NCBI RefSeq assembly: GCF_000025525.1
Contig: NC_013887.1
Coordinates: 1,312,729 to 1,376,728 of the forward strand
Length of the DNA: 64,000 nt
DNA from: Methanocaldococcus sp. FS406-22
GTDB taxonomy: Archaea; AGJL01; Methanococci; Methanococcales; Methanocaldococcaceae
Direction of reading: 5' to 3'
Both the position numbers and the translations under genes were made by a program. The notes beneath the pieces were generated by a model. It made no database searches. It had not been told where the DNA came from and saw only the letters and a program-made list of their open reading frames with translations. Shown in pieces: positions 10,310 through 30,835 of this stretch. The first letter of the stretch is position 1, and each line of letters opens with the position of its first letter.

Positions 10310-11482
10310 TTAGATAATTCTTTTTATAGCATTCCACACTAAAAATGATTGAGGTTTTAGAGTCCCTTCAATAGGATTTAGGAATAATATATTTCTTTTA
10401 ACTAAATAAATATAAACTGGCTCTGGTATTTCATCATCGCTAATTTTGTAATTATCTTTAAATAATTTTAACGCTTTAATGATGTCTTCTTTTTTAATCT
10501 CTATAACCTCATCCCCAATAGCAACCTTTGGTTTTATATAATCTAACTCTTTCAAAAAATATTTTAATTTTTGTTGTTCATTCATCAGCAAAGTTTCTAA
10601 AATCTCTTTTAAATCCTTATTTTTTAATTTATCAATAACATAAATTATATCTATCGGCTTCCCACCAACATAGTTGTAGATAAGCTCTTTATCCTCATCA
10701 GAGAGTTTTTTATTTAAAATCTCTTCAGATAGAGAGTCCATAAACTTTAGGGCATTTTCTTTATCAAAATCATCAACTAAAATATAATCTACTCTACCTT
10801 TTAACATTGCCTCATTATAAACTCTCTCAATAAATAAACTATCTGAACTTAGGCAAAAAACATGACATAGATGTTTATGCTTAGTTAGAGAGACAAAATA
10901 ATTAAAAAGCTCATAAATTAAAAATCCATTTAGTTTTAAATCTCCTATTTTTTGTAGTTCATCAATAATAATTATTGGCTGTTTGCCTTCTTTTTTAATT
11001 TCCATTAAAACATTAGTTATATATCTAAAGACGTTTTTAACTTCTTTGTCTTTCAATAGTTCATTTAAGGTATTCTTTGGTATGGGAATGCCATCAATAA
11101 CCCCTCCCGAAATCTTTAATAACATAAAATTTTTAACAACATCTGGAGAATCCCTAACTAGAGATAAAAACAATTTCTTTACTCTATCAATAAACGATTC
11201 TTCATAAACCTCAAACAAAACCTCAATAATTAGACGAAAACCTTCGGTTTTCGTTGCTCGAAGCTTCGCTTCGAAATCATCATATTTCGATATAAAAATC
11301 TCCCTCAAATCAATGTAAAAAACAACATACTTATCTTTATCTAATCGATTATTAATTATCTCATTTATTAAGGCAGTTTTTCCTGAATTTATAGAGCCAA
11401 AGATAAAATTAATTCTTTGTGGCTCAGATTCAATGATTGAGAGAATTTCTTTAATCTCTTTTTCTCTATTAAAAAATTTCAT
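10310..11482 (-). CDS. Archaeal P-loop ATPase (ATPase_2 / PF01637-like family), copy A, carrying a palindromic insert
   Basis: 390 aa. Walker A is [15 protein letters not shown] near residue 29, Walker [14 protein letters not shown] near 166, then the conserved [18 protein letters not shown] and a C-terminal winged-helix-like end [15 protein letters not shown]. This is a STAND-like archaeal ATPase expanded in methanococci; function unknown. It is a paralogue of the genes at 13546 and 29732. Compared with them it has about 15 extra residues (after SKYDDF) that translate exactly through two adjacent hairpins at 11234-11274, in frame. Start ATG 11482 has GGTGAATATTT upstream and faces away from the S-layer gene. 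Confidence 0.85.
11233..11280 (-). repeat. Two-hairpin palindromic element inside the ATPase A coding region
   Basis: On the plus strand, ACGAAAACC-TTC-GGTTTTCGT (11234-11254, 9-bp stem, 3-nt loop) is followed after three bases by TCGAAGC-TTC-GCTTCGA (11258-11274, 7-bp stem). The same two-hairpin layout, including a 9-bp first stem with TTC loop and a following CATC, occurs in intergenic DNA at 17947-17996 and 29541-29590 with different stem sequences. Here it sits in frame and adds about 15 residues ([15 protein letters not shown]) absent from paralogues. Confidence 0.75.
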
Positions 11483-11798: not shown

Positions 11799-13478
11799 AT
11801 GGCAATGAGCTTAAAGAAAATCGGTGCTATTGCAGTTGGAGGAGCAATGGTTGCTACAGCTTTAGCAAGTGGAGTTGCTGCTGAAGTAACAGTCATCGGA
11901 GAAGTTACAAAAGACTTATTCGTTAAAGATGGACAGCCAAACTGTTACGTTGTTGTAGGTGCTAATGCTCCATCAACAATGGACGTTGTTTCAGCTGCTG
12001 ACATCGCTGCTAAAATAGGAAGCTTATGCTACAAAGAAGGAACAGCTGAAACAGGTAGTGCTGATTTAAATGTTCATGTTTCAGCTGATGCAAGTAAAGT
12101 ATGGTTCAATACTTCTCAGTATGATAACTTTACATACATAGTTACTCCAGATGATGGTGACTACCCATTAGATAACGGTATTAAATATGCTAATGACCTG
12201 TACTATGCTAACCAAACTACTAATAATAGAATTACAAAAACATTATCAACATTGATGAAAATTGATGATGTAGATCCAAAAAATATCTATACAGTAAATG
12301 ATGACGATGGAATCGAAATAGGATTCTTCGCATTAAAAAATGAATCCAACGAGATTGGTGTAGATTTAGTAGGTTACGCATCAGTTGTAACAGATGACGG
12401 AAAAATGGATACCAACAATACATATTTAGCACCAGGAGTTTTAATTCCATTCTTAGGACAACAATACATGTTCGTTAAAGCAGATGCTGATAACGATGAT
12501 TTAATTATAGGTAAAATGGTATATAATGGAGTATTGGGCGAAGGAGAGACTTACGACTTAGGAAATGGATACCAAGCTAAAATAAAAGCAGTTTTAGAGG
12601 CTACAACTTCAGGAAGCCCTGCAAAAGTAGATGTTCAAATATTAAAAGATGGACAAGTTGTTGCAGAGAAATTTGATATAGCAAATACAACAAATCCATT
12701 GGTATTAACCTACGGACCAGTAGCAGCAATAGTTACAAACGCTTACAAAAACGTTGCAGCAACTACAGGATATGCTGATGTCTACTTAGTAAATGATGTA
12801 AAAAGATTACACTTAGGAGACAAATATGAAGGAAACTTCAAGATATATGCAGTAGTTCAAGATCCAACTACTGACCAGATAGATATAGTAAAAGATACCG
12901 ATATAACCGACAGTGGAGTAAGTATAAAAGGAGAAGGAAAAGTTGATGGTAAAGTAATCTGTGGTATTGCGTTAGTAGATGATACCGACCCAACAAACGA
13001 CGATAATAAACTTAGTGCTAAAGGAGACGAATTTGACGCAGTAGATGATTACTTCAAGTTAAAAGTTGATGACACACAAGGTGGAGATGACTACAAAATC
13101 TATGTCTGTTCAGATGTAACAAAAGATGCAGCAGTAGATGTAGGACAAACAGTTTCAGTATTGAATGCAGATATCACATTAAAAGATATAAAAGCTGAAA
13201 CTGTTACACCAGTTTCATTAACAGCTCCAATCGCTAAGTTAGACACAGAAGTTAGCTTAGACACAGCTGACAAGAACTTAGTCTTAGTTGGAGGACCAGT
13301 TGCAAACAAATTAACAAAAGAGTTAGTTGATGAAGGTAAGTTAGTATTAAACAACAGCAGCCCAGCTACAATCGCTGTTATTCCAGGAGCAGCAAACGGA
13401 CACGATGTTGTTGTAGTTGCAGGAGGAAACAGAGAAGAAACAAGAGCAGCTGCTTTAGAATTACTCAAAATGCTCTAA
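11799..13478 (+). CDS. slp: S-layer structural protein
   Basis: 559 aa, very acidic, with a Sec signal peptide ([20 protein letters not shown], cleavage expected around residue 28-30). N-terminal [19 protein letters not shown] and the C-terminal [18 protein letters not shown] segment match the methanococcal S-layer family. Several N-x-S/T sequons (for example in [23 protein letters not shown]) are potential N-glycosylation sites. It forms the surface lattice and is expected to be among the most abundant proteins, which fits the clean promoter, AGGTGATAAGGT ribosome binding site and dedicated T-rich terminator. Codon use is more G/C-ending than in neighbours, as in highly expressed genes. Confidence 0.95.
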
Positions 13479-13545: not shown

Positions 13546-14676
13546 ATGAGATTTTTTGATAGAGAAAAAGAAATTAAAGAAATTCTTTACATTATAGAAA
13601 GAGAACCACAAAGGATTAACTTTATCTACGGTCCCATAAACAGTGGGAAAACTGCTCTAATAAATGAGATAATTAGCAACAGATTAGACAAAAACAAGTA
13701 TGTTGTTTTTTACATTGATTTGAGGGGGCATTTTTTATCAAAATATGATGATTTCGTTAGAGTTTTGTTTAATACTTACTCGCCAAAAAAATCGTTATTT
13801 GGTAGGTTGAGAGAGTATATAAAATCTTTAATAAATGACTCTCCAAATTCGGTTGATATTCCAATTTTACCAACTCTAACTTATGGAGTTTTAACAGGCA
13901 TTCCAATACCTAAAAATCTATTAAATCAACTCTTAAAAGATAAAAATTCTGATGATGTTTTTGAGTATTTAACTGAGGTTTTTGAAAGTATCAATAAGGA
14001 AGGTAAAAAACCAATATTGATTATTGATGAATTGCAAAAAATAGGAGATATGAAAATTAATGGCTATCTTATATATGAACTATTCAATTATTTTGTCTCT
14101 TTAACTAAACATAAACATCTCTGCCATATTCTCTGCCTATCTTCTGATAGCCTATTTATTGAAAAGGTTTATAATGAAGCAATGTTAGAAGGAAGATGTA
14201 AATATTTATTAGTAGACGATTTTGATAAGGAAACATCTTTAAAATTCATTGATTTTCTATTAGAAGAAAATGATATAAAACTCTCTAATGAAGATAAAGA
14301 GTTAATTTACTCTTATGTCGGTGGAAAACCAATGGATATAAAATATGTAATTGAAGAGTGCAAATTTAAAGATTTAAAAGAGATTTTAGATTATATGCTT
14401 AAGGATGCTACTCAGAAGTTAGATATGTTTTTGGATATGCTAAATTACTCAAAACCCAAGGTAGAGATTGGAGATGAAGTCATTGAGATTAAAAAAGAGG
14501 ATGTAATTGAGGCATTGAGATTGTTTAAGAAAAATTATGAACTTGATAAAAAAGATATTCCAGTGCCTGTTTATATTTATTTAGTTAAAAAGAATATATT
14601 GTTTTTAGACCCTATTAATGGAATTTTAAAACCTCAGAGTTTTTTAGTTTGGAATGCTATAAAGAGATTGTTATAA
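13546..14676 (+). CDS. Archaeal P-loop ATPase (PF01637-like), copy C
   Basis: 376 aa, closely related to the products at 10310 and 29732. Walker [16 protein letters not shown], Walker [32 protein letters not shown], and C-terminal [17 protein letters not shown]. It has no palindromic insert after SKYDDF, so it serves as reference for copy A. It follows the S-layer terminator and is 16 bp upstream of a second, more distant ATPase; GGTGATAG precedes the ATG. Role unknown; family members are often surmised to be STAND-type switches or mobile-element relics. Confidence 0.85.
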
Positions 14677-17912: not shown

Positions 17913-18057
17913 TTCTCTTCTTCAAATGAACCTTTAAGAAAGTTGAACAAAACTCTTCGAGTTTTGTAGCTGGAAAGCAGAGCTTTCTGTTTCATCAAAA
18001 CTAACACATCCTCGCTTACGCTCGGAGGTGTAAATTAAAAGATTCTACGGTGATAAG

Positions 18058-29487: not shown

Positions 29488-29540
29488 GGTATCACCAATT
29501 TATAACAATCTCTTTATAGGAAACTTTTAGTAAAAGTTAA

Positions 29541-29592
29541 ACAAAATCTTTCAGATTTTGTAGCTGGAAAGCAAAGCTTTCCATTTCATCAA
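29541..29592 (+). repeat. Two-hairpin palindromic element, intergenic copy
   Basis: ACAAAATCT-TTC-AGATTTTGT (29541-29561) is followed by AGCT and GGAAAGC-AAA-GCTTTCC (29566-29582) and TTTCATCAAAACT. The copy at 17947 reads ACAAAACTC-TTC-GAGTTTTGT then AGCTG, GAAAGC-AGA-GCTTTC and TTTCATCAAAACT. Stem positions differ in a compensated way while loops and joints are conserved. Confidence 0.75.
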
Positions 29593-29604
29593 AACTCGTC
29601 CATT

Positions 29605-29708
29605 TAACCAATTATCAAAGTTTTTAATTGTTATAAGGCAGTTATGGAAGCTCCTTTGGAGCTTCCAATTTTTCATTAATAAATATTTTACCTTTTGATA
29701 ATTGGTTA
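29605..29708. mobile_element. 104-bp MITE-like element, family 2
   Basis: Perfect 15-bp terminal inverted repeats, TAACCAATTATCAAA (29605-29619) and TTTGATAATTGGTTA (29694-29708), enclose an AT-rich body with a central hairpin GGAAGCTCC-TTT-GGAGCTTCC (29646-29666). No coding capacity. Size and plan (long TIR plus central hairpin) parallel the MITE at 32207, but the sequence is different. Confidence 0.65.
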
Positions 29709-29731: not shown

Positions 29732-30835
29732 TTAACGTCCATTCAATAATTTCTTTATTGCATTCCACACCAAATAACTTTGTGGCTTTAGAGTCCCTTC
29801 AATAGGATTTAGGAATAGGATATTTTCTTTAACTAAATAAACATAAATTGGCATAGGAATTTCTTTTTTTGGGATTTCATATTTATTTTTAAATAACTTC
29901 AATGCATTGATAATGTCTTCTTTTTTAAGTTCAATTACTTCATCTTTTATCTTTACTCTTGGTTTTGAATACTCTAAAAACTCCAAAAACATATCTAACT
30001 TAGAGACCTCTTCTTTAAGCATTGAATTTAAAATCTCTTTTAGCTCTTTATATCTCATCTCATCAATTACATTGTAGATGTATATTGGCTTTCCCCCAAC
30101 ATAAGAATAAATAAGCTCTTTCTCACCATCAGAGAGTTTTTTATTTAAAATCTCCTTAGCCAAAAAATCCATAAACTTTATTGCTGTATCTTTATCAAAA
30201 TCATCAACTAAAATGTATTTGGCTCTTCCCTCCAATTCTCCAGTGTTATAGACATACTCAATAAACAAGCTATCAGAACTTAGACAAAAAACATGGCATA
30301 GATGTTGTTCTTTAGTTAGAGATACTAAGAATTGAAATAGTTCTTTTAATAAATATTTCTGCCCATTTAACACAACGTCTTTAATCATCTGCAGTTCATC
30401 AAATATTAAAATTGGCTTTTTCCCACTCTTTTTAACCGCTAACAATAAACTGTTTAAGTATTGGAAGGCATCGTTTATCTTCTCCTCAAATAGTTTACCA
30501 AATTCAATTTCAGGAATTGGAATACCAGTTAAAATCTTAGCTCCTTTAGTTATTAAGTTCAAAACCTCTGATTTATCCTTTATTTTTTCAAAGAAATCAT
30601 CTTTTTTAGTGGTGAAAATAGCTTCAATAAACTCCCTCTTTTCTGATATTAAGTAGGTTCTGAAATTAATGTAGAAAACTTTGTAATTATCATTTAGTCT
30701 ATTTTCTATGATATGTTTTATTAATGTAGTTTTACCAGAATTTATAGAGCCGTAGATAAAATAAATTAAATTTGGCTCTCCCTCTAAGATTGATAAAATT
30801 TCTTTGATTTCTTTCTCTCTATTGAAGAATTTCAT
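29732..30835 (-). CDS. Archaeal P-loop ATPase (PF01637-like), copy F
   Basis: 367 aa, same subfamily as 10310 and 13546: Walker [16 protein letters not shown], Walker [33 protein letters not shown]-terminal [18 protein letters not shown]. It lies between marker proteins 17 and 15, an operon-like pair that it probably split on insertion, and is bordered downstream by three hairpin/MITE elements. Function unknown. Confidence 0.85.

Follow-up and report, generated by a model that had tools for sequence, protein, structure and literature searches.

Palindromes that insert in frame into protein-coding genes are a rare documented way for selfish DNA to add residues to proteins, and we know of no mechanism by which such elements move. 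The repeats nearest to those considered here, in Methanocaldococcus jannaschii, were reportedly described from one genome and sorted into three groups, named MJRE, one of which reportedly has a few of its copies in coding sequence. Two short hairpins side by side are likewise dispersed in fungal and algal organelle genomes, as the mitochondrial double-hairpin elements. The M. jannaschii repeats (Suyama, Lathe and Bork, 2005) are palindromic and have coding potential, as cited in portions of PMC2229807 and PMC2996958, and the portion of PMC2996958 that mentions them cites in-frame insertions in that archaeon; on these accounts they contradict an earlier note on the present locus, which knew of no such case in methanogens. 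The Rickettsia palindromic elements (RPE) are given a length of 105-146 bp in the relevant portion of PMC2229807 and of about 150 bp in that of PMC10969869.

The window, the whole stretch of DNA analysed here, comprises 64,000 nt of Methanocaldococcus sp. FS406-22 (NC_013887.1, positions 1,312,729 to 1,376,728). The earlier note proposed that a palindromic element had been inserted in frame into one of its ATPase genes, here called gene A, at 11233-11280; the double hairpin does lie there, while the actual insert sits slightly further left, at 11229-11273. The features concerned are the following, R1 and R2 being covariance models introduced below.

10310..11482, minus strand: host gene A, ATPase_2 (PF01637) with an MJ1010-like C-terminal domain (PF21690), 390 aa, open across the insert
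11229..11273, element orientation plus: 45-nt double-hairpin module, read on the minus strand as gene A residues 71-85
11234..11254, plus: hairpin 1 of the gene A insert, 9 bp, perfect, TTC loop
11258..11274, plus: hairpin 2 of the gene A insert, 7 bp, perfect, TTC loop
17942..18001, plus: intergenic family member, module with TTTCATCAAAAC tail, in the training sets of R1 and R2
29536..29595, plus: intergenic family member, in the training sets of R1 and R2

The insert contributes exactly 15 codons to gene A and leaves the open reading frame unbroken, and its boundaries are ambiguous by one base (11229-11273 or 11228-11272); judging from its placement against the empty sites, the last base of hairpin 2 is probably target DNA. 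Much of what had been read from the locus is borne out, in that both adjacent hairpins are perfect, the protein stays open through them, and the roughly 15 residues described as extra are absent from the paralogues at 13546-14676 (copy C) and 29732-30835 (L166). When perfect 7-bp stems with loops of 3-5 and a gap of up to 8 were counted over the whole window, adjacent hairpin pairs turned up at two places, 11235-11274 and 29522-29583, with 8 overlapping pairings, whereas 100 shuffles that preserve dinucleotides averaged 0.22 pairings and never gave more than 2; the count passes over the element at 17942, which has the same plan and a second hairpin that is not a perfect 7-bp stem. Another hairpin, with a perfect 10-bp stem and a loop of 3 nt, is found at 29645-29667, about 50 bases past the intergenic element at 29536. 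The window holds four ATPase-family paralogues (10310, 13546, 14693 and 29732), three of which surround the S-layer gene (11799-13478), and other genomes of the genus have 2 to 28 ATPase-family matches each.

Alignment of the ATPase gene copies of the genus that span the site places the insert in 5 of 72 and an empty site in the remaining 67. This set was drawn from one listing of ATPase copies, with the distant 35-42% family represented by two singletons only; L193 and L195, which do not span the site, and L082 and L083, which duplicate L199 and L198, were excluded. Synteny, sought in seven genome stretches and based on MinD-like and S-layer genes on either side (neighbours named by eye), identified the corresponding gene in two further genomes (our handles G001 and G011), and both are insert-free: that of G001 is intact and 82% identical to gene A, and that of G011 is a degenerate copy. 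As most copies, including these two, have the empty site, the insert is derived in the gene of the window; an ancestral origin of the 15 residues, shared by all orthologues, does not fit the 67 copies that are without them. Gene A is itself mosaic-looking, its residues 86-150 resembling the ATPases L015 and L004 and the remainder the syntenic L003.

In-frame insertion of the same family into unrelated genes is also supported and, together with the empty syntenic sites, upholds the proposal of a palindromic repeat inserted in frame. CobN of G005 (CobN-Mg_chel) carries an insert of exactly 45 nt (12 homologues empty), BioF (Aminotran_1_2) carries 57 nt in G000 and 51 nt in G011 (10 homologues empty), and LarC of G001 (Ni_insertion) carries a 114-nt composite insert (12 homologues empty); a 6-nt difference in hairpin 1 separates the two BioF inserts, with pairing and frame both kept. 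In an acylphosphatase-like gene (PF00708), counted with the HypF-like rows L304 and L305 left out, 45 nt net are present in two G033 copies and one G029 copy against 24 empty places listed, and two of these three insert-bearing copies are broken or truncated. Further in-gene copies, located by open reading frame alone and with hosts named by eye, lie in a HAD phosphatase and a protein of no assigned kind (G013), a helicase intein (G004), a transposase (G012) and the end of a TnpB gene (G004); the three R1 matches interior to reading frames in G004 are the ATPase, the intein-bearing helicase and the TnpB-like gene (the last two by eye). The TnpB-like transposase, L134, carries its module near the C-terminus, and similar flanks occur in L092 (G006) and L100 (G005); with such a host, an insertion sequence could carry the element along. 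A ferredoxin-domain ASKHA-like protein of G022 (L286, 1001-1058; by eye) apparently contains two modules in frame.

The kinship of these inserts to dispersed intergenic repeats was examined with R1, built from nine copies including the gene A insert, and R2, built from eight intergenic copies with the gene A insert left out to avoid circularity. R2 matches the gene A insert at 11229-11286 (E 9.4e-6, rough calibration), third in the window after two training copies, and thereby ties it to the members at 17942-18001 and 29536-29595, where the two-hairpin plan had been noticed near 17947 and 29541. With L062, an individual intergenic module from the same genome, as the query, 11230-11274 is matched (E 2.1e-4) and nothing else at E<=1; L062 differs from the insert chiefly in a single compensated base pair and in its tips, which are 4-nt TAAC in place of 3-nt TTC, the TTC-tip form without TAA being the one that measures 45 nt. 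A sequence-only profile of the eight intergenic copies scores the gene A insert weakly (E 0.044; core alone 0.34), and structure or a closer module is therefore needed to see the relationship.

R1 finds at least 30 matches at E<=1 in its own genome, at least 22 of them at E<=0.01, and matches in at least 11 of the 14 Methanocaldococcus genomes; at E<=0.001 it matches at least 17 of 36 Methanococcales genomes in four of five genera, with none among the matches listed for a group of seven Methanococcales genomes (g2); a search set to the whole phylum covered these same 36 genomes. Within the genus, 78 of 108 matches have no open reading frame of 80 codons running through the element, a set that leaves out three own-genome matches and one G004 match overlapping another on the opposite strand, and that includes five own-genome matches weaker than E 0.01 (up to E 1), the BioF insert at E 0.07 among them. 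Many of the copies outside reading frames are composites in which a left hairpin is followed by one to three modules, then TTTCATCAAAAC and a tail (by eye), and many intergenic composites have ATGAAAC on their left side and GTTTCAT on their right (by eye), neither of which is present on the 45-nt coding module. An Rfam search of seven element loci gave four matches at E<=1, the only one above its gathering score being HgcC, a neighbouring gene; TD-1 over the element at L052 fell below its gathering score (32.6 against 64.5) and was set aside. The HgcC RNA gene (L079, 2689-2814, in G004) has an intergenic element about 1.1 kb away.

The model that we put forward with considerable confidence is that the ATPase gene received, in the form of these 45 bases, one copy of a double-hairpin repeat of Methanococcales that is mobile but non-autonomous. 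Such an insert would persist as its length is divisible by three, its frame is free of stops, and the 15 residues that it adds, in a variable region, would be neutral or nearly so.

The same near-identical 45-mer occupies the same ATPase codon in gene A and in one copy in each of four other species (G004, G005, G006 and G010), and the insert is thus not unique to gene A; the G004 copy is presumably MJ1010. At up to three mismatches, the 45-mer pattern has nine occurrences spread over 6 of 14 genomes, namely in five ATPases, in CobN and at three places in G012, and a reversed-pattern control gave no match in the same 14 genomes. One of the three G012 occurrences lies in a transposase-like reading frame, and the three share flanks pairwise, left or right, and probably go back to a single insertion that travelled on an insertion sequence. 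An exact 22-base pattern searched in 84,980 species genomes returned one record only, Methanocaldococcus sp. SG1; exact matches known from other 45-mer species went unreported in that scan, which is thus no proof of absence. No two of the five loci share a neighbouring gene besides the ATPase within 13-14 kb (for G010, 3.9 kb). Grouping the five insert-bearing ATPases in one clade is rejected (p-AU 0.0014 with five rows; 0.0058 with four, without the G010 fragment) and the insert requires five changes on the ATPase tree, four of them forced by starred branches, these tests being weakened by recombination among paralogues and by two long branches. With one codon shared, no common neighbours and no clade, either repeated insertion at the same site or conversion over very short tracts must be invoked.

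It is possible, although we lean away from it, that gene conversion or recombination spread an old single insertion among paralogous ATPases in several species. The shared codon and near-identical 45-mer would follow directly, and the family is both paralogous and mosaic, the segment of gene A after the insert being close to L015 (G004) and the rest close to L003 (G001). The left flanks of the insert-bearing copies are also alike (0.83-0.93 identical mutually over 15-30 nt, the frameshifted G005 excepted) and do not discriminate between the readings; at 30 nt, no left flank matches that of the G010 copy better than the one in gene A. However, outside its five-base tip the insert is 99% identical, against 80% for the left and 58% for the right 45-nt flanks (the frameshifted G005 not counted). 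Over 45 nt the right flanks are better matched by insert-free than by insert-bearing copies in all five cases, clearly in gene A (0.87 vs 0.56), G004 (0.93 vs 0.71) and G005 (0.96 vs 0.89) and narrowly in G010 (0.91 vs 0.89) and G006 (0.76 vs 0.73), with some ties at 15-30 nt. The rejected clade and the five changes on the tree also speak against conversion, as does the near-identical 45-mer inside CobN.

On these flank comparisons, repeated insertion at one site appears favoured, with a conversion tract that stops immediately next to the insert as the less likely course. We therefore propose, tentatively and at not quite an even chance, that the archaeal mobile element is homing-like, inserting repeatedly, independently and in frame at the same ATPase codon and at one acylphosphatase-like site, without target duplication and through some enzyme. 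If so, this would be a homing-like, protein-tolerated palindrome insertion recurring in a paralogous ATPase gene family across species.

The absence of a target duplication longer than 2 nt, the flipping of the hairpin tips, and arm changes that are two-sided without one-sided G-U steps lead us to infer a DNA hairpin or template-switch step. No duplication of more than 2 nt was seen by eye at the ATPase, CobN, BioF and acylphosphatase-like sites, two of the four having an ambiguous AT. The coding-strand tips of the five ATPase inserts read CGAAG, CTTCG, TGAAA, TTTCA and TGAAA, so that the loop flips between GAA and TTC and the closing pair is changed on both sides. Among 12 coding copies picked for one common layout, five of whose rows are near copies, 96.4% of paired cells pair (7 cells do not), and both-sided changes number 20 by cell (shuffled mean 6.9; 0 of 500 shuffles as high) and 6 by pair (mean 3.4; 3 of 500 as high), with no one-sided standard change in any cell; further pair types, one of five measures, show no excess (6 against a shuffled mean of 7.7). 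Copies that derive from different sources can show such covariation as well. Resemblance of the target to the TTTCATCAAAAC tail is unsupported by ungapped comparison at the same four kinds of site, where scores are mostly ordinary; the ATPase site was scored one base out of phase, and the CobN site reaches at best 7 of 13, equalled at about 6-8% of positions. The element would thus spread as DNA via a hairpin-forming intermediate, and an even call may be made for movement by some host or mobile-element enzyme or by template switching.

It may alternatively be proposed, with little probability, that the insert is retained for useful RNA hairpins or for the 15-residue peptide. The insert DNA is strongly conserved across species, synonymous positions included, and its hairpin arms change together. 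However, one-sided G-U changes, expected to be allowed under selection on RNA, are lacking, and the peptide encoded by the element varies with strand and frame, from which it follows that no one peptide has been selected across genes. The stretch that holds the insert is, moreover, indel-rich and poorly predicted: in an AlphaFold2 model of gene A (27 sequences, mean pLDDT 79), it falls inside residues 63-149, nearly all with pLDDT below 50, between the strand after the P-loop helix and the next well-predicted core, and a model of such low confidence is uninformative on whether the 15 residues disturb the fold. Foldseek returned only the archaeal ATPase fold for gene A. Of the 5 insert-bearing ATPases 3 are broken, and of the 69 others 12 are broken or partial (Fisher p 0.054), in a crude test that uses a single alignment and also counts contig ends and split alignments; relaxed constraint on the insert-bearing ATPases is at best hinted at by these sequences. 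The 15-residue peptide is likely to be without selected function.

Mobilisation as a REP-type element by a Y1 (RAYT/IS200-like) transposase is very unlikely. Single-strand transposition would suit the lack of target duplication, and one Y1 gene is present in the genome of the window. Many intergenic copies read TTTGTAGC before hairpin 2, comparable to the GTAG tag of REPs (in the pertinent part of PMC3733652). However, the gene A insert has GTTG and others ATAG, and a search for Y1 transposase (PF01797) found it in 2 of 14 genomes, the own genome included, with all other element-bearing genomes but one lacking it, against elements in at least 11 of 14. Y1 transposase was accordingly set aside as the general mover, as its presence does not track the elements. 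A local origin of the hairpins, through chance or duplication, with convergence behind their resemblance to the intergenic repeats, is hardly credible: the sequence is short and its sequence-only score against the main intergenic type is weak (E 0.044), but hairpin pairs are rare in shuffles, L062 and R2 match it well (E 2.1e-4 and 9.4e-6), and the 45-mer recurs nine times in 6 of 14 genomes against none for the reversed control.

For the mobile double-hairpin repeat, the recurrence of a near-identical 45-mer at one ATPase codon in five species looks new; no paper on such repeats in other Methanocaldococcus species or on same-site recurrence was found among open-licence PMC papers, recurrence not having been a target of the search. 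With clean empty sites between closely related species, exact boundaries, several hosts and one codon in five species, the family offers an archaeal system in which the rule of insertion and the enzyme behind the movement can be put to the test.

Comparison with described elements places the repeat as follows. MITEs have target site duplications, of which none over 2 nt is seen at the four sites here (by eye), and terminal inverted repeats, which may have a counterpart in the ATGAAAC/GTTTCAT of many intergenic composites (by eye) but not on the 45-nt coding module. REP/RAYT systems share short hairpins and, in many intergenic copies, a GTAG-like tag, and some REPs lie inside genes (in the part of PMC3733652 concerned); unlike them, the gene A insert has GTTG at the palindrome foot, where a GTAG or CGTC tag would stand and where most others have GTAG, ATAG or GTTG, and 12 of 14 genomes have no Y1 transposase match. 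The mitochondrial double-hairpin elements agree by description in having two short dispersed hairpins with few bases between, but belong to organelle genomes. RPEs are likewise in frame in unrelated genes and tolerated by their hosts (as described in portions of PMC2229807, PMC10969869 and PMC2996958), and differ by description in length, the insert here being 45 nt with two separate hairpins, or 51, 57 and 114 nt in other genes. The M. jannaschii repeats are of the same genus, palindromic and, in some cases, in frame in protein genes (Suyama et al., 2005, as cited in part elsewhere). The in-frame trait recurs here in the ATPase, CobN, BioF and LarC, each with empty sites. The mostly extragenic habit that defines those repeats is matched by a family in at least 11 of 14 genomes with 78 of 108 matches lacking an 80-codon reading frame. 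Likened by description rather than by sequence, the gene A insert very probably belongs to the M. jannaschii kind of coding palindromic repeat, to which the present data add empty sites across species, recurrence at the same ATPase codon and occurrence in other genera.
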